From Flavobacterium sp. J49 (lineage in GTDB: Bacteria > Bacteroidota > Bacteroidia > Flavobacteriales > Flavobacteriaceae), in the NCBI RefSeq assembly GCF_011742145.1, contig NZ_JAAQQU010000105.1, positions 62,001 to 126,000 on the forward strand: 64,000 bases of DNA, read 5' to 3'. Shown here piece after piece: positions 14,045 to 64,000 of the stretch. Below the pieces are notes generated by a model. It was not told the origin of the DNA, searched no databases, and saw nothing but the letters and a program-made list of their open reading frames with translations. Position numbers and translations under genes: made by a program. Each line of letters starts with the position of its first letter. The first letter of the stretch is position 1.

Positions 14045-16039
14045 ATGACAACAACTTTATTTAATCAGCTACTAAAAAAAGGTGAAAATGACATCGTAGA
14101 TTTCAAAGAAATAGGATATTTTACTGAATCTCCAAGCGCTTCAAAAAAAGATAAAGATGCAGAGTTTATAAAGGATCTCGTTTCATTTACCAATACAGTT
14201 AGAGAAGAAAACGCATATATTTTGATAGGTGTTAAGGACAATGGAGAGAAAGTTGGTATTGCAGATAATGAATTTACAGACGGAGCTGTTCTTCAATCAA
14301 AAATTAAAGATAAAATATTACCAATACCTAAGTTTAACACATATCCTTTCGTTGATGATAATGGGTTAAAATTTCAGATTATAGAAATTCCTATTGAAAA
14401 ATACTCAAGTCCTTGCCAACCAACTGTTGCTATCGGTACCACACTTGAGAGAAACAGTGTGTATATCAGGAGAAATACTAGTAATGAAAAAGCTGGATAT
14501 GATGAAATTGTTAGACTTTCGGAATGGTTGAAAACAATTCCTGCTAAAGCAAGTTCAAATTCAAAAGCTAATACAATTGCTAAAAACCAAGATAATTCGT
14601 TTCAATTTGATGAAATAACAATTCAACAACTGTTTGGAAACGAAGCAGCAGAAGACGAAGATGTGGAAAGATTAAAAGAGTATTATTTCAAGAACGAGAT
14701 TTTCAACAAAATAGCAGTTGACTTACCGCTTAGAATTTTGGTGGGACATAAGGGAATAGGCAAATCTGCTCTATTCAACGTGGCAATGTCTGAAGACAAA
14801 GACGCTGACAAACTTCCAATAAAAATTAAACCTAATGATGTAGCACAAATAGGAAAAGGTTTGACCGACTTTTCAGATATTATCAGAAATTGGAGAGCGG
14901 GATTATTTACAATTCTTTTTAAAAAAACATTTTCCTACTTTGGTATTAATATCAAACAAGAAGACCTATTTAATTTTGAAAACTTTGAAGGGAATTTTGT
15001 AGATTTAATTGTTGAAAGACTTGAAGAATCAATAGATGGTGGATATGTTCCTGAAAAAAATCTCGATTCATTGGAAAATTTCTTGTCTAATCCTTCCATC
15101 AACATTTATATTGATGACTTAGATCGTGGCTGGGAAGGTACAAAATCCGATATTACTAAAATATCCGCCCTACTAAATGCTGTAAGAGATATAATTAGTG
15201 AAGAAAATCGAAGATTACATTTCAAAATTTCATTAAGATCCGATGTATATTTTTTATACAGAACCTCAGATGAAAGTACAGATAAAACACAAAGTTCGGT
15301 TATCTGGTATAAATGGTCATACCATGAAATTCTTGCTTTACTAGTTAAACGGGTAAGAACTTATTTTAAGAAACCGGTTGATGAAGGACTTTTAAGAAGC
15401 TCACATCAAGCAGATCTCGCAAAAAATTTATCGGGCATTATTGAACCAATATTTTCTGGCCAAGGTAAATGGGAAAGTCGCGAAACATATCGAGTTCTTC
15501 TTTCAGTCATACGAAAAAGACCGAGAGATTTAGTAAAGCTCTTGACACTTGCCGCAAGAAATGCCGAGAACAGAAAATCTCCAATTATTGCAACTCAAGA
15601 CTTAAAAGCTATTTTCGATGAGTATTCGCTTGATAGAATTCAAGATACTATTAACGAATATAAATCAGAATTACCCGGAATTGAGCGGTTAATTTTTGGT
15701 ATGAAACCAGATCGTAAAACTGCAAAAACATCTGATAGTTTTTACTATACAACACAAGGCTTGCTTTCAAAAATTAATAAAATTAGAGAACGTGGAGAAT
15801 TTAGATTCTCCAATGGGAAACCTGCTGACGCTAGACAGCTTGCTGCATTTTTATATAAAATCAATTTTCTAACGGCAACAAAATTAAAGGACGATGGGTT
15901 TATCGAACGGAAAGATTTTGAAGAAAACCGATATCTTGTCCCTAAATTTGAAGATTTTGGATATGATTGGGAAGTTCACATGGCTTTTAGATGGGGACTT
16001 CAACCTAGTGATCAAAATAGTATTTACACAGTTCTTTAG
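14045..16039 (+). CDS. AlbA_2 (Schlafen-type) domain fused to P-loop ATPase, Sll1717-like
   Basis: 664 residues. The N-terminal ~160 match the AlbA_2/'divergent AAA-4' domain: E-N-D-I-V-D-F-K-E start, then LVSFTNTV and a YILIGVKDNGE strand-turn. After a linker, FGNEAAEDED leads into an ATPase with Walker A GHKGIGKSA (about 236-244) and Walker B YIDDLDRGW (about 357-365), the pattern I know from Sll1717-family P-loop ATPases. The C-terminus (about 560-664) looks like a small helical or winged-helix module. Such fusions are common in defence-associated genes, and an antiphage role is a reasonable but untested guess. It stands alone between inverted repeats. Confidence 0.8.
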   Translation: MTTTLFNQLLKKGENDIVDFKEIGYFTESPSASKKDKDAEFIKDLVSFTNTVREENAYILIGVKDNGEKVGIADNEFTDGAVLQSKIKDKILPIPKFNTYPFVDDNGLKFQIIEIPIEKYSSPCQPTVAIGTTLERNSVYIRRNTSNEKAGYDEIVRLSEWLKTIPAKASSNSKANTIAKNQDNSFQFDEITIQQLFGNEAAEDEDVERLKEYYFKNEIFNKIAVDLPLRILVGHKGIGKSALFNVAMSEDKDADKLPIKIKPNDVAQIGKGLTDFSDIIRNWRAGLFTILFKKTFSYFGINIKQEDLFNFENFEGNFVDLIVERLEESIDGGYVPEKNLDSLENFLSNPSINIYIDDLDRGWEGTKSDITKISALLNAVRDIISEENRRLHFKISLRSDVYFLYRTSDESTDKTQSSVIWYKWSYHEILALLVKRVRTYFKKPVDEGLLRSSHQADLAKNLSGIIEPIFSGQGKWESRETYRVLLSVIRKRPRDLVKLLTLAARNAENRKSPIIATQDLKAIFDEYSLDRIQDTINEYKSELPGIERLIFGMKPDRKTAKTSDSFYYTTQGLLSKINKIRERGEFRFSNGKPADARQLAAFLYKINFLTATKLKDDGFIERKDFEENRYLVPKFEDFGYDWEVHMAFRWGLQPSDQNSIYTVL

Positions 16040-16240: not shown

Positions 16241-17935
<1,695 letters not shown>

Positions 17936-17984
17936 TTAGTGTTCCGTTTTTTTATTATATTAGACACCTGTTAAACCGCAATTC

Positions 17985-18722
17985 ATGACCTTTCCTTTTC
18001 AGTTCAATCTTTTTGGCGATGCGGTGAATTATCATATTGTATTTGAAACACTGGCTTTTTTTATAGGCGTTCGCCTTTACTATCATTTAAAGAAAGGTAT
18101 AGCCGACCAGATTTCCGACATCAATCGGCTGTGGATTATGCTGGGCGCTATGATAGGCGCGCTCATAGGCTCGAGAGTGATTGCAATGTTGGAAAATCCG
18201 ACCGAAATCATGCACCAAACCTGGTTGACCTTTTACCAAAACAAAACGGTTGCCGGTGGTTTTTTGGGCGGCTTGTTTGGCGTAGAACTGATGAAAAAAA
18301 TCATAGGCGTGAAAACCGCTTCGGGTGATATTTATGTCATTCCGATTATAGTGGCGGTTTTTATAGGCAGAATCGGTTGTTTTAGCATGGGCGTTACCGA
18401 AAACACCTATGGCATAGCAACCAATTTCATCTTTGGGATGGATTTGGGCGACGGCAAGCTCCGACATCCGGTAGCGCTTTATGAAATGGCCTATATGGTG
18501 TTGCTGTTGGGGTTGTTCCAAAAGATCAAACTCAAAGAAATGCGCAACGGTGACCGATTCAAATTGTTTATGGTTTTGTACTTTTTGTACCGTTTTTTAG
18601 TCGAATTTATCAAACCGTATCATCCGTTATTTTTAGGAATGAGCAGTATTCATTGGAGTGCGCTTTTTCTTTTTGCTTATTATTACCAATTTATTTTAAG
18701 ACTCCTTCGCTATGCCCAATAG
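17985..18722 (+). CDS. Lgt-like polytopic membrane protein with altered catalytic residues
   Basis: 245 residues, about seven membrane helices. It carries the prolipoprotein diacylglyceryl transferase frame: GRIG at 128-131, HPVALYE at 161-167 and RFLVEF at 203-208. Key Lgt residues differ: the position of the conserved Asn after GRIG is Cys132, and the HGG motif reads AGG (90-92), so the essential His is missing. It therefore probably does not lipidate preproteins but keeps an Lgt-type lipid-binding fold. The last 11 bp overlap the start of the radical SAM gene, implying translational coupling and a shared, likely lipid-directed, task. It is not expected to be the housekeeping Lgt. Confidence 0.82.
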   Translation: MTFPFQFNLFGDAVNYHIVFETLAFFIGVRLYYHLKKGIADQISDINRLWIMLGAMIGALIGSRVIAMLENPTEIMHQTWLTFYQNKTVAGGFLGGLFGVELMKKIIGVKTASGDIYVIPIIVAVFIGRIGCFSMGVTENTYGIATNFIFGMDLGDGKLRHPVALYEMAYMVLLLGLFQKIKLKEMRNGDRFKLFMVLYFLYRFLVEFIKPYHPLFLGMSSIHWSALFLFAYYYQFILRLLRYAQ

Positions 18723-20100
18723 AGATTATATTTACTACGACTACACCAAGAGCCTTTGTCCGGAATGTTTGCATACCATTGATGCCAAAATTGTCTTTCA
18801 GGACGATAAGGTTTGGATGCTCAAACACTGCAAAACCCACGGTGATACCAAGGTGATGATCGCCGATGATGTGGAATACTACCGACAAATCAGAAACTAC
18901 AACAAGCAATCGGAAGTGCCTTTGAAATTCAATACCAAAGTGCATTACGGCTGTCCGTATGATTGTGGTTTGTGCACCGACCATGAGCAACATTCATGTT
19001 TGTCAATCGTAGAAGTCACTGACCGATGTAATTTGGCTTGCCCAACGTGTTACGCGAGTTCGGGACCCAATTACGGTCGACACCGCACCTTGGAAGAAAT
19101 CGAAAAGATGTTTGACATTATTGTGGCCAATGAAGGCGAACCCGATGTGGTGCAGATTTCGGGTGGTGAACCCACGGTGCATCCGCAATTCTTTGAAATT
19201 ATGGACATGGCGAAAAGCAAACCGATACGCCATTTGATGTTGAATACCAATGGGATTCGCATTGCTAAAGACATTTCGTTTGTAGAAAAACTGGCGAGTT
19301 ACATGCCCGACTTTGAAATCTACTTGCAGTTTGACAGTTTCAAACCTGAGGTTTTAGAGAAACTCCGCGGCGAAGATTTGACGGAAGTTCGTAAAAAAGC
19401 GATAGCTAATTTGAATCAGTTCAACCTATCGACCACGTTAGTCATCACGCTCCAAAAAGGCGAAAACGATGATGAAATCGGGAAGATATTAGAGTATGCT
19501 GTGCAACAAAAATGTGTGCGTGGCGTAACGTTCCAACCTACCCAAGTAGCCGGAAGAAACGACAATTACAACGACCACCAAGGCAGAATCACCTTAACCG
19601 AAGTGCGTCGAAAAATCTATGAGCAATACCCGATATTCACGCCACAGGATTTGATTCCGGTGCCGTGTAATCCCGATGCTTTGTGTATGGCGTATGCGTT
19701 AAAAATAGACGGCGAGATTATGCCGATGACCAATTTGATTAATCCCGAAGATTTGTTGAACAATTCAAAAAACACCATTGTTTTTGAAAACGATGAAAAA
19801 TTGAAAACCCACATGCTCAACTTGTTCAGTACGGGCATTTCAGTTGATTGTGCCGAAGAAGAGTTTGGCGAATTGATGTGTTGTTTGCCAAGGGTAAAAT
19901 CGGACAGTTTACATTATGAAAATCTTTTTCGTATTATTATCATGAATTTTATGGATGCGCATGATTTTGATGTCAGAGCGGTGAAAAAATCCTGTGTTCA
20001 CATCGTGGACAAAAGAGGGAAAATTGTCCCTTTTGAAACGATGAACCTGTTTTACCGAGACAACAAGATAGACGACATCAGAAAAGAATTAAATTATTAG
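18712..20100 (+). CDS. Radical SAM enzyme of the Tes/MJ0619 (COG1964) type
   Basis: 462 residues. The radical SAM cluster motif is C106-x3-C110-x2-C113 (TDRCNLACPTC), followed by the SAM-binding ISGGEPT. The N-terminus carries the hallmark of this family: CPEC at 16-19, C40..H43, then GCPYDCGLC (80-88) and Cys96, sites for extra metal centres. More Cys near 316-324 and 352-371 fit auxiliary clusters. Relatives include archaeal tetraether lipid synthase, which couples lipid tails, and MJ0619, linked to pterin methylation; many bacterial members are unassigned. The overlap with an Lgt-like membrane protein makes a lipid substrate attractive, but this is inference. Confidence 0.85.
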   Translation: MPNRDYIYYDYTKSLCPECLHTIDAKIVFQDDKVWMLKHCKTHGDTKVMIADDVEYYRQIRNYNKQSEVPLKFNTKVHYGCPYDCGLCTDHEQHSCLSIVEVTDRCNLACPTCYASSGPNYGRHRTLEEIEKMFDIIVANEGEPDVVQISGGEPTVHPQFFEIMDMAKSKPIRHLMLNTNGIRIAKDISFVEKLASYMPDFEIYLQFDSFKPEVLEKLRGEDLTEVRKKAIANLNQFNLSTTLVITLQKGENDDEIGKILEYAVQQKCVRGVTFQPTQVAGRNDNYNDHQGRITLTEVRRKIYEQYPIFTPQDLIPVPCNPDALCMAYALKIDGEIMPMTNLINPEDLLNNSKNTIVFENDEKLKTHMLNLFSTGISVDCAEEEFGELMCCLPRVKSDSLHYENLFRIIIMNFMDAHDFDVRAVKKSCVHIVDKRGKIVPFETMNLFYRDNKIDDIRKELNY

Positions 20101-20102
20101 TC

Positions 20103-20306
20103 ATGGGGAATCTATTTTTGATGTCGGATTTTTTAAATTGGATAATCCTGTTTTTGCTGTTTGCCAGTCCGATTGCGTTTGTTATAGGTATAATTTTAAT
20201 AGCCGTTTCAAAAGACACTCGGAAATTCGGAATTAAGTTACTCATTGGTTCGGTAATAACTTTCATCATTGGCTTTGGAACATGTTTGGCCAGTATGAAT
20301 ATATAG
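20103..20306 (+). CDS. Small two-helix membrane protein, copy A
   Basis: 67 residues, two hydrophobic helices (about 12-34 and 45-63) separated by a charged loop SKDTRKFGIKLL. It starts 2 nt after the radical SAM stop codon, so almost certainly cotranslated. The second half (DTRKFGIKLLIGSVIT..IIGFGTC) matches the next small protein closely. Both conserve a Cys at the end of helix 2. Function unknown; a membrane anchor or partner for the radical SAM enzyme is possible. Confidence 0.7.
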   Translation: MGNLFLMSDFLNWIILFLLFASPIAFVIGIILIAVSKDTRKFGIKLLIGSVITFIIGFGTCLASMNI

Positions 20307-20345
20307 GTTGAAAATAATTTTCGAAGAACTAAATTATAATAAAAG

Positions 20346-20537
20346 ATGCTGATTGTACTATTTCTACTGGTCATTATAATATTCATGAGCATTATTGCTT
20401 TTTTAATAGGATTGTACAAAGTGCTCTTTGATAAAGAAGACCGAGCATTCGGGATAAAGCTGCTGACCTATTCGGTAATCACAATGATTATCGGTTTTGG
20501 AAGTTGTACTGCTTTGCTTGAATCCGGAGCCATTTAA
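20346..20537 (+). CDS. Small two-helix membrane protein, copy B
   Basis: 63 residues, two hydrophobic helices. Shares D-x-R-x-FGIKLL-x2-SVIT-x-IIGFG-(S/T)-C with the gene 39 bp upstream, so the two arose by duplication. No other homology recognised. Probably the last gene of the Lgt-like/radical SAM unit, since the next gene has its own -7 box. Confidence 0.65.
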   Translation: MLIVLFLLVIIIFMSIIAFLIGLYKVLFDKEDRAFGIKLLTYSVITMIIGFGSCTALLESGAI

Positions 20538-20577
20538 CTTTAACGATAGATTAACAGTTAAATCCAATCCAACTGAA

Positions 20578-20585
20578 TATTTTTG
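20578..20585 (+). promoter_or_regulatory. -7 box of thioredoxin-fold lipoprotein gene
   Basis: TATTTTTG, perfect match to TAnnTTTG. It overlaps the TTG that would open the longest frame and so fixes the start at ATG 20604. Confidence 0.6.
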
Positions 20586-20603
20586 TTTACTAGTTTCTAT
20601 TCA

Positions 20604-22013
20604 ATGCACAATTACAGAAATTTAAAAGTTTTTGCTTTACTTATCCCTTTAATCACGCTTTTGAGTTCGTGTAAAAACGAATTTAAAGGAAGTGACTATG
20701 TTGCCTATTTTGGCGGAGAAATAGTCAATCCCAACAGTCCGTATGTGCTTTTCTGCAAAGACAATGAAGTAATTGACTCGATTAAATTAGACAAAAACAA
20801 CCGCTTTTTTGTGCAATTTGATTCTTTAGCACCGGGTTTGTATACGTTTAAACACGAACCGGAATACCAATACGTTTATTTTGACAAGAACGACAGTTTG
20901 ATGGTGCGTGTAAACACCCGAGACTTTGACAATTCGGTTGTATTTTGTGGTCGTGGCGATCAAAAAAACAACTTCCTCATGGAGCAATATTTGAAAAATG
21001 AGAAAGACAAAAACAGATTGTTTGAAGCCTTTGATTATGATATAGACCAATTCACCAAAGCCATTGATTCCTCCTACCAGTTGGCCACTAAGTTTTATAC
21101 TGCCAAAAAAGAGGAAATCAAATGGAGCGAAGAATTTGATGAATATGCCAAAGCTGCTTTAGATTTTCCTTACTATTCCCGAAGAGAATTGTATCCGATG
21201 GTTCACAAAATCAGAACCGGAAACGATGTGTATGAAAAAATACCGGCAGACTATTACAATTTCAGAAAAGACATCGATTGCAACAATGTGGCACTTTCGA
21301 CCTTTTCGCCTTTTGTGATGTATTTGTCGCACATGTTGAACAACATGGGTTCCATCAATTACCACAACCATTTTTCGGAAGTGGATTTGGCGCTAAAAAC
21401 CAACATCAACAAGATGAATATAGCCGATACGTTGATTAAAAACGAAAAGGTAAAAAACACCATACTCAACAATATCGCCTTCACCTACTTGCTGGAAGAC
21501 CAAAACATGGTGAACAACCAAACGTTTTTGGCTACTTACCACAAATTCTCTACTGATAAGAGTCAGAAAAATGAAATCACCAAAATCGGCGATGCCATAC
21601 AATTGCTCAAAGCCGGTGGTAAACTTCCCGAAGTTACCCTGTTAGACCGTAAGGGAAACAAAATAAAAGCTTCAACTTTTGCCAACAAAAAGACGGTGAT
21701 TTTCTTTTGGACAGCCAATGCGGTTTCGCATTTAGAAGCGGTACACAAAAAAATATTAGCCATTCAAAAAGCGCACCCCGAGTATCAATTTGTGGGGATT
21801 AACATCAACGATACCCAAGACGAATGGAAAACATTTTTGAGAAAATATAAATTTGACAGCATCACCGAATTGCGTTGCGATGATTTTGAAGACATTAAAG
21901 CCAAATGGGTTATAACTAAAATTCACCGAACCATTGTTTTAGGCGACAACGGCTTGGTTAAAAATGCATTCACCAATGTGTTTGAGTTGAACTTTGAAGA
22001 AGAACTTAAATAA
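20604..22013 (+). CDS. TlpA/AhpC-like thioredoxin-fold lipoprotein lacking the CxxC
   Basis: 469 residues from ATG 20604. The signal peptide ends in the lipobox L-L-S-S-C (Cys near residue 24). Residues ~30-110 form a beta-sandwich like the DUF4369 domain often seen in front of Bacteroidetes TlpA domains, and the middle is helical. The C-terminal ~140 residues are a thioredoxin fold (VIFFWTANAVSHLEAVHKKI... FVGININD), but WCxxC is replaced by WTANAVSH, so no redox-active pair is present. Probably a periplasm-facing binding or structural protein rather than a thiol oxidoreductase. A strong terminator follows. Confidence 0.8.
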   Translation: MHNYRNLKVFALLIPLITLLSSCKNEFKGSDYVAYFGGEIVNPNSPYVLFCKDNEVIDSIKLDKNNRFFVQFDSLAPGLYTFKHEPEYQYVYFDKNDSLMVRVNTRDFDNSVVFCGRGDQKNNFLMEQYLKNEKDKNRLFEAFDYDIDQFTKAIDSSYQLATKFYTAKKEEIKWSEEFDEYAKAALDFPYYSRRELYPMVHKIRTGNDVYEKIPADYYNFRKDIDCNNVALSTFSPFVMYLSHMLNNMGSINYHNHFSEVDLALKTNINKMNIADTLIKNEKVKNTILNNIAFTYLLEDQNMVNNQTFLATYHKFSTDKSQKNEITKIGDAIQLLKAGGKLPEVTLLDRKGNKIKASTFANKKTVIFFWTANAVSHLEAVHKKILAIQKAHPEYQFVGININDTQDEWKTFLRKYKFDSITELRCDDFEDIKAKWVITKIHRTIVLGDNGLVKNAFTNVFELNFEEELK

Positions 22014-61650: not shown

Positions 61651-64000
61651 ATGATAGTATTAAAATTCGGCGGTACTTCGGTTGCCAATGCTGAAAATAT
61701 TTCAAAAACCATAACGATAGTTGCCAACAAAAGCAAAGAAAACCAACTCGCCGTAGTTGTTTCTGCCTTTAGCGGCGTAACCGATTTATTGATTTTGGCC
61801 GGAAAAACTGCCGGTGCGAAAGACAAAGGATACAAAGACATCGTTAATCAAATCGAGAAAAAACACAAAGACGCCATAGACGAATTGATTCCGCTCAGCG
61901 AACAAAGCGAGATTATTGATACCATTAACCATGACATCAACCATTTAAAAACGCTATTGGACGGTTGTTACCTTTTGGGAGAATTATCAAGCAGAACGGC
62001 GGATATAGTGGCCGGTTTTGGCGAACTGTTGTCGTCACAGATTATTGCGGTAGCGCTAAAGCAAAAAGTAAGCAACTCAGCTTTTAAAGACAGTCGCGAA
62101 GTGATTAAAACCAATTCCAACTTCGGAAAAGCAGCCGTAGATTTTGAGGCAACCAATCAATTAATAGTAGATTATTTCAAAAACAATACTACTCAAGTAA
62201 CCTTGTTTCCCGGATTTATTGCGTCCTCATTTGATGGAAATACCACTACTTTAGGCCGAGGCGGTTCCGATTACACGGCAGCGATTATTGCCGCAGCGGT
62301 AAAAGCCGAAGTCTTGGAAATTTGGACCGACGTAAACGGAATGTTCACTGCCAATCCGAAAAGCGTAAAACAAGCCCAACCCATAGAAACCATCTCCTAT
62401 CAGGAAGCAATGGAGTTGTCGCATTTTGGCGCCAAAGTATTATATCCGCCAACCATTCAGCCGGTGTTGAAAGACAACATTCCGATTTTTATCAAAAATA
62501 CTTTCGAGCCTGAAGCTTACGGAACATTGATTTCCAATAACCCGGAAGCATCAAGCAACCCCATAAAGGGAATAACCCACATTGACAATATTGCTTTATT
62601 AACCTTAGAAGGTTCAGGTATGATAGGCGTTGCGGGCTCGTCCAAGCGTTTGTTCGAAGTTTTGTCTAATGAAAACATCAACGTGATTTTTATAACTCAA
62701 GCTTCTTCGGAACATTCGATTTGTGTCGGAATTCTAAATACTGATGCCGACAAAGCCAAAACCGCTATCGACAAAGCATTCGAAATGGAAATTGCCCAAG
62801 GCAAAGTCGACCCAACTATCGTCGAAAAAGATTTATGCATCGTAGCATTAGTAGGTGAAAGCATGAAAAACCACCAAGGCATCAGCGGCAAAATGTTTAG
62901 CACATTAGGCAAAAACAATGTCAACATTCGCGCGATAGCACAAGGCGCTTCGGAAAGAAATATCTCGGTGGTGATTAATGAGAAAGACGTGAAAAAAGCA
63001 CTGAATACGTTACACGAACGCTTTTTTGAAGACAATACCAAACAGTTGAATTTGTTTGTCATGGGCGTTGGTAACGTAGGCGAAAAATTCATTGACCAAA
63101 TCAGTCAGCAAAAGAAATTCCTCAAAGAAAACCTCAAAATTAATGTGCGCGTCATCGCTTTATCGAATTCCCGCAAAATGGTTTTCGATGAAGAAGGCAT
63201 CAACTTGAAAGACTGGAAAGAGACTTTAGAAAATGGTGAAAAAGCGAATCCAAGTGGATTCATCGCACGAACCAAAGAGTTAAATTTACGCAACAGCATT
63301 TTCGTAGACATTACTGCGAATCAAGATATCGCGGGCATTTACGACCAATTCTTAGGCCAGAATATAGCTGTAGTCACTTGTAACAAAATAGCCTGTTCCT
63401 CGGAATACAACCACTATAAAAACCTTAAAAACTTATCCCGAAAATACAACGCGCCATTCTTATTTGAAACGAATGTCGGAGCCGGTTTGCCTATCATTGA
63501 TACGCTAAAACACTTAATTGCGTCGGGTGATAAAGTGAATAGAATCAATGCAGTATTGTCGGGAAGTTTGAATTTTATTTTCAATAATTTCAGCGACACT
63601 TACAGCTTTCACGATGTAGTAAAAGAAGCAGGTGTTCAAGGTTTTACAGAACCTGACCCAAAAATTGATTTAAGTGGTGTTGATGTCGCCAGAAAGATAC
63701 TAATCCTCATTCGCGAAAGCGGTTACGAAATGGAAATGGAAAACATTACCAACAATTCATTTCTGCCTAAAGAATGCATGGACACAACGAACAACGAGGA
63801 TTTTTTCAAATCATTAAACAAACACGCGAGTCATTTTGATAATCTTTTGGCAGAAGCTAAATCCAAAGACAGTCGCTTGAAATTTGTAGCCTCTTTCGAA
63901 AATGGTAAAGCCAGCGTTGGTTTACAATTTATTCCATCTGACAGTCCGTTTTACAACTTAGAAGGAAAAGACAATATCGTCGAGTTTTATACCAATCGTT
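61651..64000 (+). CDS. thrA: Bifunctional aspartokinase / homoserine dehydrogenase I (3' end missing)
   Basis: 783 codons are present before the window ends; the family length is about 815-820. Aspartokinase domain starts MIVLKFGGTSVA, with TLGRGGSDYTA and the WTDVNG loop. ACT repeats follow at ~305-450 (threonine binding). Homoserine dehydrogenase starts near residue 466 (LFVMGVGNVGEKF) and contains NVGAGLPIIDTLKHL and GSLNFIF. It phosphorylates aspartate and later reduces aspartate semialdehyde to homoserine, committing carbon to threonine and methionine. The Thr-rich leader suggests attenuation as well as feedback control. Confidence 0.96.
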   Translation, partial: MIVLKFGGTSVANAENISKTITIVANKSKENQLAVVVSAFSGVTDLLILAGKTAGAKDKGYKDIVNQIEKKHKDAIDELIPLSEQSEIIDTINHDINHLKTLLDGCYLLGELSSRTADIVAGFGELLSSQIIAVALKQKVSNSAFKDSREVIKTNSNFGKAAVDFEATNQLIVDYFKNNTTQVTLFPGFIASSFDGNTTTLGRGGSDYTAAIIAAAVKAEVLEIWTDVNGMFTANPKSVKQAQPIETISYQEAMELSHFGAKVLYPPTIQPVLKDNIPIFIKNTFEPEAYGTLISNNPEASSNPIKGITHIDNIALLTLEGSGMIGVAGSSKRLFEVLSNENINVIFITQASSEHSICVGILNTDADKAKTAIDKAFEMEIAQGKVDPTIVEKDLCIVALVGESMKNHQGISGKMFSTLGKNNVNIRAIAQGASERNISVVINEKDVKKALNTLHERFFEDNTKQLNLFVMGVGNVGEKFIDQISQQKKFLKENLKINVRVIALSNSRKMVFDEEGINLKDWKETLENGEKANPSGFIARTKELNLRNSIFVDITANQDIAGIYDQFLGQNIAVVTCNKIACSSEYNHYKNLKNLSRKYNAPFLFETNVGAGLPIIDTLKHLIASGDKVNRINAVLSGSLNFIFNNFSDTYSFHDVVKEAGVQGFTEPDPKIDLSGVDVARKILILIRESGYEMEMENITNNSFLPKECMDTTNNEDFFKSLNKHASHFDNLLAEAKSKDSRLKFVASFENGKASVGLQFIPSDSPFYNLEGKDNIVEFYTNR

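Follow-up and report, generated by a model that had tools for sequence, protein, structure and literature searches.

We report here a four-gene cassette of Flavobacterium sp. J49 in which a divergent member of the Lgt family is coupled to a radical S-adenosylmethionine (SAM) enzyme, hereafter rSAM, and to two small membrane proteins, S1 and S2, each with a Cys residue close to its C-terminus. The cassette lies in the window, namely the whole 64,000-nucleotide stretch covering positions 62,001 to 126,000 of contig NZ_JAAQQU010000105.1, and the affiliation of the window to Flavobacterium agrees with an rSAM protein 97% identical to that of F. buctense. Functional coupling of the Lgt-like and rSAM genes is strongly supported by their common occurrence among genomes, the four genes come and go as a unit, and the small proteins are specific to this module. 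Our favoured explanation, which we hold tentatively, is a self-contained post-translational modification cassette in which the Lgt-like protein would lipidate the Cys of the microproteins and the rSAM would functionalise either the lipid or the peptide. The features, all on the + strand and numbered from the first nucleotide of the window, are the following.

17985..18722, +, Lgt-like seven-helix membrane protein of 245 residues, a divergent Lgt paralogue (PF01790, AlphaFold2 model, Foldseek, gene overlap)
18378..18380, +, codon of Cys132, at the position of the GRxGN Asn (Cys in 86/86 homologues and in 12 distant Lgt-like proteins)
18712..20100, +, rSAM of the Tes-TrsS superfamily, 462 residues (motifs, NCBIfam scores)
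20103..20306, +, S1, small membrane protein of 67 residues with Cys61 near the C-terminus (..FIIGFGTCLASMNI), candidate substrate (under purifying selection)
20346..20537, +, S2, paralogue of S1, 63 residues with Cys54 near the C-terminus (..MIIGFGSCTALLESGAI), candidate substrate (under purifying selection)
17861..20582, +, the four-gene cassette as insertion unit (spacing of the flanking genes in relatives)

The Lgt-like and rSAM open reading frames (ORFs) overlap by 11 bp, and gaps of 2 bp and 39 bp separate rSAM from S1 and S1 from S2. This layout, with its coordinates and motifs, reproduces the one given in an earlier annotation of the same DNA (the original prediction). All four genes are under purifying selection, the ratios of non-synonymous to synonymous substitution rates (dN/dS) against F. 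buctense (L033) being 0.09 for S1, 0.18 for S2, 0.14 for the Lgt-like gene and 0.02 for rSAM, so that the two small membrane proteins originally predicted after rSAM are confirmed as real genes.

The Lgt-like and rSAM genes occur together

Among 71 genomes of the genus Flavobacterium, the rSAM and the Lgt-like gene are found in the same 10 genomes and neither of them in the other 61. At a broader scale, 26 of 296 Bacteroidota genomes encode the rSAM at E<=1e-50, and the 24 with a close rSAM (E<=1.2e-119) all carry an Lgt-like gene at E<=1e-30. The two genes lie within 1.2 kb of each other in 22 of these 24 genomes and on different contigs in the remaining two (G093 and G329); co-occurrence across Bacteroidota, which the original prediction named as a check on its functional link, thus holds even when the genes are unlinked. 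The module is also carried by F. aquidurense (L058) and F. hydatis (L073). As for the two weaker rSAMs, that of G155 directly adjoins a more distant Lgt-like gene (3.6e-21), and that of G125, which has no Lgt-like gene, passes the NCBIfam Tes cut-off (493.8 vs 450). Six additional rSAM genomes in the larger set of 395 Bacteroidota genomes stand outside the Lgt-like count. By a crude measure, the distances of the two proteins are also correlated (r 0.95, 86 loci), a value confounded by species relatedness and not taken as evidence.

The association extends beyond Bacteroidota. On plasmids pS2b of Mycobacterium avium and pJCM12687 of M. branderi, an lgt-like gene, two small membrane genes and an rSAM gene stand in a row, while Nonomuraea has an Lgt-like/rSAM pair and Persicobacter displays the gene order of Bacteroidota. 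The records from outside Bacteroidota come from a plasmid collection only, and that of Nonomuraea, at 11.9 Mb, may be a chromosome despite its label. In a tree of 28 rSAMs, the 22 Lgt-coupled ones fall on one side of a branch with a support of 88/87, below the mark for strong support, and long branches and odd composition were flagged; this topology leans towards a single origin of the Lgt-coupled rSAMs without amounting to proof.

Several rSAM genes have other surroundings. Five relatives, from M. vanbaalenii and four haloarchaea with loci on plasmids (L164, L167, L172, L173 and L174), directly precede a methyltransferase gene, and no Lgt-like gene is present in the stretches of L164 and L167 or annotated near L172, L173 and L174. 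Some of these methyltransferase-linked loci are close to redoxin/DUF547 genes or to CcdA/disulfide oxidoreductase genes, and they perhaps represent a different, TrsS-like association. The Tes-type rSAM genes of G125 (L146:5864-7321, so called by the NCBIfam cut-off) and G359 (L205:5107-6582, so called from its sequence) have no Lgt-like partner nearby, the absence applying to the 12 kb read in the case of G359, and both are candidate bacterial membrane-spanning-lipid synthases.

The cassette is gained and lost as a unit

In the window, the cassette is flanked by a divergent ABC-F gene (start 17860, - strand) and by a TlpA-like lipoprotein gene starting at 20583, and the interval of 2.7 kb between them contains exactly the four cassette genes. 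Intervals were compared at 25 loci, window included, retrieved through the TlpA-like gene, which is present in 33 of the 71 genus genomes. Leaving the window aside, 24 Flavobacterium loci remain, and at 13 of them the starts of the flanking genes are only about 100-270 bp apart. The remaining 11 loci either contain the module or have an ABC-F gene that is missing, sits on a different contig, falls beyond the stretch or lies some 1 kb away. Twelve of the 13 genomes with a short interval have no module, and one (G508) has it elsewhere. The short interval of relatives, compared with 2.7 kb and four genes in the window, shows that the module comes and goes as a unit.

The TlpA-like gene itself (20583-22013) encodes a protein of TlpA/AhpC type with a thioredoxin fold, whose start (LLSSC) resembles that of a lipoprotein. 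Since its distribution in the genus does not track the module, it was ruled out as a member and is considered a neighbour.

Two versions of the cassette coexist within Flavobacterium. The rSAM of the window is 80% identical to that of Cloacibacterium, the versions of other Flavobacteriaceae genera being at about 68-70%, and the same-genus genome G228 (L114) carries the LEVGNL-type small protein of those other genera. This mixture inside one genus suggests, from sequence comparison, transfer of the cassette. In F. davisii (L046), the Lgt-like match is confined to residues 10-108 beside a full-length rSAM gene, which possibly reflects decay of the module.

The microproteins end with a near-invariant Cys residue

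At E<=0.001, neither S1 nor S2 is assigned to a family by Pfam or NCBIfam. Two hydrophobic helices are discernible in the S1 sequence, and modules contain one to four microprotein copies. To count the Cys independently of its presence, ORFs were selected by position and hydrophobicity only. Of 117 distinct rSAM loci, 2 are cut too short and 51 have no hydrophobic small ORF following the rSAM gene; at the other 64, the nearest such ORF was taken, and all but one of these (63 of 64) show the motif [GAS]-x-C within their last 26 residues. Weeksellaceae, in which the small ORF is located between the Lgt-like and rSAM genes, account for many of the 51 loci. In all, 36 of the 43 loci with a gap of 150-700 bp between the Lgt-like and rSAM genes hold one small ORF in it, and all 36 of these ORFs have a Cys in their last 12 residues; in four further gaps there are two Cys-ended ORFs, and the last three are without any. 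By comparison, [GAS]-x-C occurs in 54 of 381 control hydrophobic small ORFs from the same DNA. A wider search, accepting any small hydrophobic ORF within 1.2-1.3 kb on each side, retrieved a Cys-ended ORF at 107 of the 117 loci, but this count, which includes chance ORFs and fails to capture the M. avium pair, is given no weight.

The microproteins are module-specific. A profile of the Flavobacterium type gives 13 strong matches (E<=2.8e-8) in the 71 genomes, all directly downstream of rSAM, as 2-4 tandem copies in 5 of the 10 module genomes, the other five not being reached by this profile. Of two marginal matches at other places (E about 2e-4), one belongs to a genome that has no module.

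The typical context of the Cys varies with the lineage: I-G-F-G-T-C in Flavobacterium, S-L-G-I-C-G in other Flavobacteriaceae, S-G-x-[VI]-C-G in Chryseobacterium and A-G-[IY]-C-T-G in M. avium. In a set of 156 sequences the Cys stands 1-13 residues from the end. It follows an uncharged run with a median length of 16 residues (quartiles 15-19), and Lys or Arg precedes this run in 151 of 154 sequences. These two sets were filtered by [GAS].{1,2}C, so that their Cys content is 100% by selection and the unselected counts are those given above; two non-gene ORFs were dropped before the set of 154. For comparison, 44 lipoprotein-type signal peptides from the same loci, chosen with an early Lys or Arg demanded, have a run of median 14 (13-15) and a Lys or Arg ahead of it in 42 of 44. 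The microproteins thus resemble bacterial lipoprotein precursors in the succession of a positive charge, an uncharged stretch close in length to that of signal peptides, and a Cys; they differ from them in that a lipobox is nearly always missing.

The Lgt-like protein has a rebuilt active site

The Lgt-like protein meets the PF01790 LGT model (64.9 bits vs a cut-off of 24.9) and misses the NCBIfam Lgt equivalog cut-off (36.7 vs 334 bits). The only PDB match at E<=0.001 to its AlphaFold2 model (mean predicted local distance difference test score, pLDDT, 85.4) is E. coli Lgt, 5azb (Foldseek E 3.3e-6, TMq 0.59). Because a canonical lgt, as looked for on the basis of the original prediction, is present on another contig of the same genome (G000:C91, 194.9 bits), the cassette gene is a paralogue.

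The original prediction had also noted replacement of the HGG His and of the Asn following GRIG, and alignment to true Lgt proteins bears this out in 86/86 homologues. A90-G91-G92 stands where Lgt has HGG, and the His position is occupied by Val (39), Ala (35), Met (10), Leu (1) or Ile (1), never by His; the Asn of GRxGN is Cys132 throughout. Twelve distant Lgt-like proteins (from G288, G192, G329, G093, G076, Persicobacter, G180, G214, G155, M. avium, M. branderi and Nonomuraea) likewise read GRxGC and have no His. The pocket residues R129, E139, E167 and R203, which correspond to R143, E151, E202 and R239 of E. coli Lgt, with roles described in PMC4728403, are invariant in the 86 homologues. 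In comparison with the E. coli enzyme, the fold and these four residues are thus retained, while H103, reported there as essential (Mao 2016, PMC4728403), is replaced by Ala, another aliphatic residue or Met, and N146 by Cys. H17, aligned with Y26 of E. coli Lgt, and E21 are newly invariant. Between its G163 and L202 the canonical flavobacterial Lgt has a long insertion, of which the Lgt-like protein is devoid. These conservation patterns indicate an active site that is rebuilt and held by selection, not decayed, and a simple lgt duplicate was ruled out by the new invariant residues together with the co-occurrence.

Two Bacteroidota families of distant Lgt-like partners bear a signature with three Cys residues, GRxGCFFxGCCYG (L144:8906-9733, L145:5858-6625 and L206:7471-8298), pointing to a thiol-rich active site.

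The radical SAM enzyme is a sister of Tes

Pfam assigns Radical_SAM and Zn_ribbon_HMPTM domains to the rSAM of the window, and no SPASM domain matches it at E<=0.001. Its best NCBIfam match is TrsS, a radical SAM (seleno)protein family (NF045646), with 330.7 bits for a cut-off of 490, a cut-off that none of the 395 Bacteroidota genomes passes; Tes gives 283.3 bits for a cut-off of 450. Tes and TrsS proper were therefore ruled out. The closest solved relative by sequence is Tes (7tol, 224 bits), and the AlphaFold2 model of the rSAM, being poor (pLDDT 58.5), was not used.

Likeness to Tes (GDGT-MAS, MJ0619, PDB 7tol) extends over the rubredoxin-type CX2CX20CX2H at the N-terminus (C16/C19/C40/H43), the N-terminal cluster motif CX3CX2C (C81/C85/C88) and the radical SAM motif CX3CX2C (C106/C110/C113), all three being motifs of GDGT-MAS in PMC9433317. 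The same source reports Met439 and Tyr459 as completely conserved in 1000 archaeal homologues. Met439 is kept as M411 in the rSAM, but Tyr459 is replaced by I431, both residues being invariant in 9 aligned rows, and Ser427 takes the place of one Cys of the Tes C-terminal domain in the alignment to 7tol. Three further Cys residues are invariant in the 9 rows, namely C319, opposite a Ser of Tes, and C390 and C391, in a part not aligned to Tes. In view of the loss of Tyr459, the change of Cys to Ser and the additional invariant Cys residues, the rSAM is, on its sequence features, a sister enzyme of Tes whose reaction cannot be read from that of Tes. The enzyme called Tes/MJ0619-type in the original prediction shares these motifs with Tes, yet neither the curated cut-off nor the position of Tyr459 makes it Tes. 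One point of that prediction, a relative linked to pterin methylation, is corrected here: MJ0619 is itself the tetraether synthase (GDGT-MAS), and its earlier role in pterin methylation found no corroboration in the work of Lloyd et al. (PMC9433317). The COG1964 label is that of the original prediction.

Discussion

In the explanation that we favour, the microproteins would form a two-helix hairpin in the inner membrane, with a loop rich in Lys and Arg on the inner side and a last helix directed to the outside. The charge pattern fits this topology, in which the Cys in the last helix would reach the outer face of this membrane, the side on which Lgt acts; a lipoprotein signal peptide about to be used by Lgt has the same geometry. 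The Lgt-like protein would keep the phosphatidylglycerol-binding pocket with a rebuilt thiol/peptide site, and may transfer a diacylglyceryl or similar lipid to the Cys of these lipobox-free substrates. The rSAM, as a relative of Tes, may then abstract a hydrogen atom from the attached lipid tail or from the peptide and so form a new C-C or C-S bond. Being module-specific, tandem-duplicated and near-invariant in their Cys, the microproteins look like a substrate, so that the module would sooner modify a protein, perhaps by adding lipid, than bulk membrane lipid. The arrangement is reminiscent of cassettes for ribosomally synthesized and post-translationally modified peptides (RiPPs) with a radical SAM maturase, in which small, variable and often repeated candidate precursors (here 1-4 copies) adjoin the radical SAM gene; it differs from them by candidate precursors that are membrane hairpins, by a partner with the Lgt fold and by the lack of a SPASM match.

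A number of observations weigh against this explanation. The counterpart of the essential H103 is absent in 86/86 homologues, and the Lgt-like protein may therefore not be a thiol transferase; in addition, a cytoplasmic rSAM and an outward-facing Lgt site would act on opposite faces of the membrane. The strict lipobox [LVI][ASTVI][GAS]C occurs in just 4 of 156 microproteins. In a looser positional set of module ORFs, which includes spurious ones, [GAS]-x-C drops to 122/182 with any Cys near the end in 169/182, and 189 of the 381 control ORFs also have a Cys near the end; it is hence the motif and the position, and not the Cys alone, that set the microproteins apart. No such small protein is present in the stretch read at L147/L138 (G155), L166 (Nonomuraea), L069 and L139 (G093), and at L074 the first small ORF has no Cys and the second has one. 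Furthermore, one of the other 272 Bacteroidota genomes (G076) has, at the same threshold, an Lgt-like gene standing alone (L171:4653-5498), the genome giving no match to such an rSAM at E<=1e-50, and the locus counts bear on related loci, which are not independent.

In the model of the original prediction, a membrane phospholipid would be bound by the Lgt-like protein and offered to the rSAM, which would modify its tails; completed with the small proteins as accessory subunits, this model is possible but on balance unlikely. It accommodates the retained residues of the lipid pocket, the loss of the His to which an action on the peptide thiol is ascribed (PMC4728403) and the homology of the rSAM to the lipid-tail enzyme Tes. 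Yet it leaves unexplained why the small proteins have a near-invariant Cys at signal-peptide-like spacing and occur in one to four copies, and the rSAM has Ile431 at the place of Tyr459 and falls below the Tes cut-off. A more elaborate variant, to which we lend little credence, is a lipid-stapled microprotein whose Cys would receive a diacylglyceryl group outside, one tail of which the rSAM would join through a C-C bond to the tail of an inner-leaflet phospholipid. If true, such a staple would be a covalent membrane-spanning protein anchor, a bacterial and protein-bound counterpart of the archaeal tetraether lipids.

The small proteins could instead be structural or redox subunits that anchor a membrane rSAM complex by pairing with Cys132 or by binding a metal or cluster, the substrate being elsewhere. 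The invariance of Cys132 in the 86 homologues and the GC..GCCYG at this place in distant ones speak for such a role, which we nevertheless judge unlikely, as the variable copy number and the weak conservation of the microproteins outside the last helix fit substrates better and no other Cys or His is among the five commonest letters of any Cys-anchored column. An action in trans on other proteins, for instance on a subset of ordinary prolipoproteins with the microproteins as regulators, fits the presence of an additional Lgt-family protein in a genome that already has Lgt; the loss of the HGG His and the restriction of the microproteins to the module in the 71 genomes, bar the two marginal profile hits, make it improbable. 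Finally, the genes might be chance neighbours, a second lgt in decay beside an unrelated rSAM, as the loss of both signature residues of Lgt could let one believe. This idea is refuted by the co-occurrence counts, by dN/dS values of 0.14 and 0.02 and by the spread over two phyla, and it retains hardly any probability. A defence function of the cassette was also considered and rejected: PADLOC returned two viperin-model matches to the rSAM, the best at 3.3e-15, over the radical SAM core, and its models matched none of the three rSAM partners at E<=0.01. Elsewhere in the window (14045-16039), a Schlafen AlbA_2 domain fused to an Sll1717-family P-loop ATPase partially matches the candidate defence model PDC-S50 (1.3e-11).

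No description of the Lgt-like/rSAM pair was found in the open-licence PubMed Central papers searched. The component superfamilies are known and their combination is new, namely a likely small-protein modification cassette in which a protein of Lgt fold would be a maturase and membrane hairpins would be its precursors. Bacterial homologues of Tes have been proposed to make membrane-spanning branched glycerol dialkyl glycerol tetraether (brGDGT) lipids (Zeng et al., PMC8941075), and 25 of the 26 rSAM-bearing genomes among the 296 Bacteroidota genomes also carry an Lgt-like gene; bacterial COG1964 genes should thus not be read as markers of brGDGT lipids. If the modification cassette is confirmed, a second function of the Lgt fold would be established, and a novel type of protein (lipid) modification would be added in two phyla.

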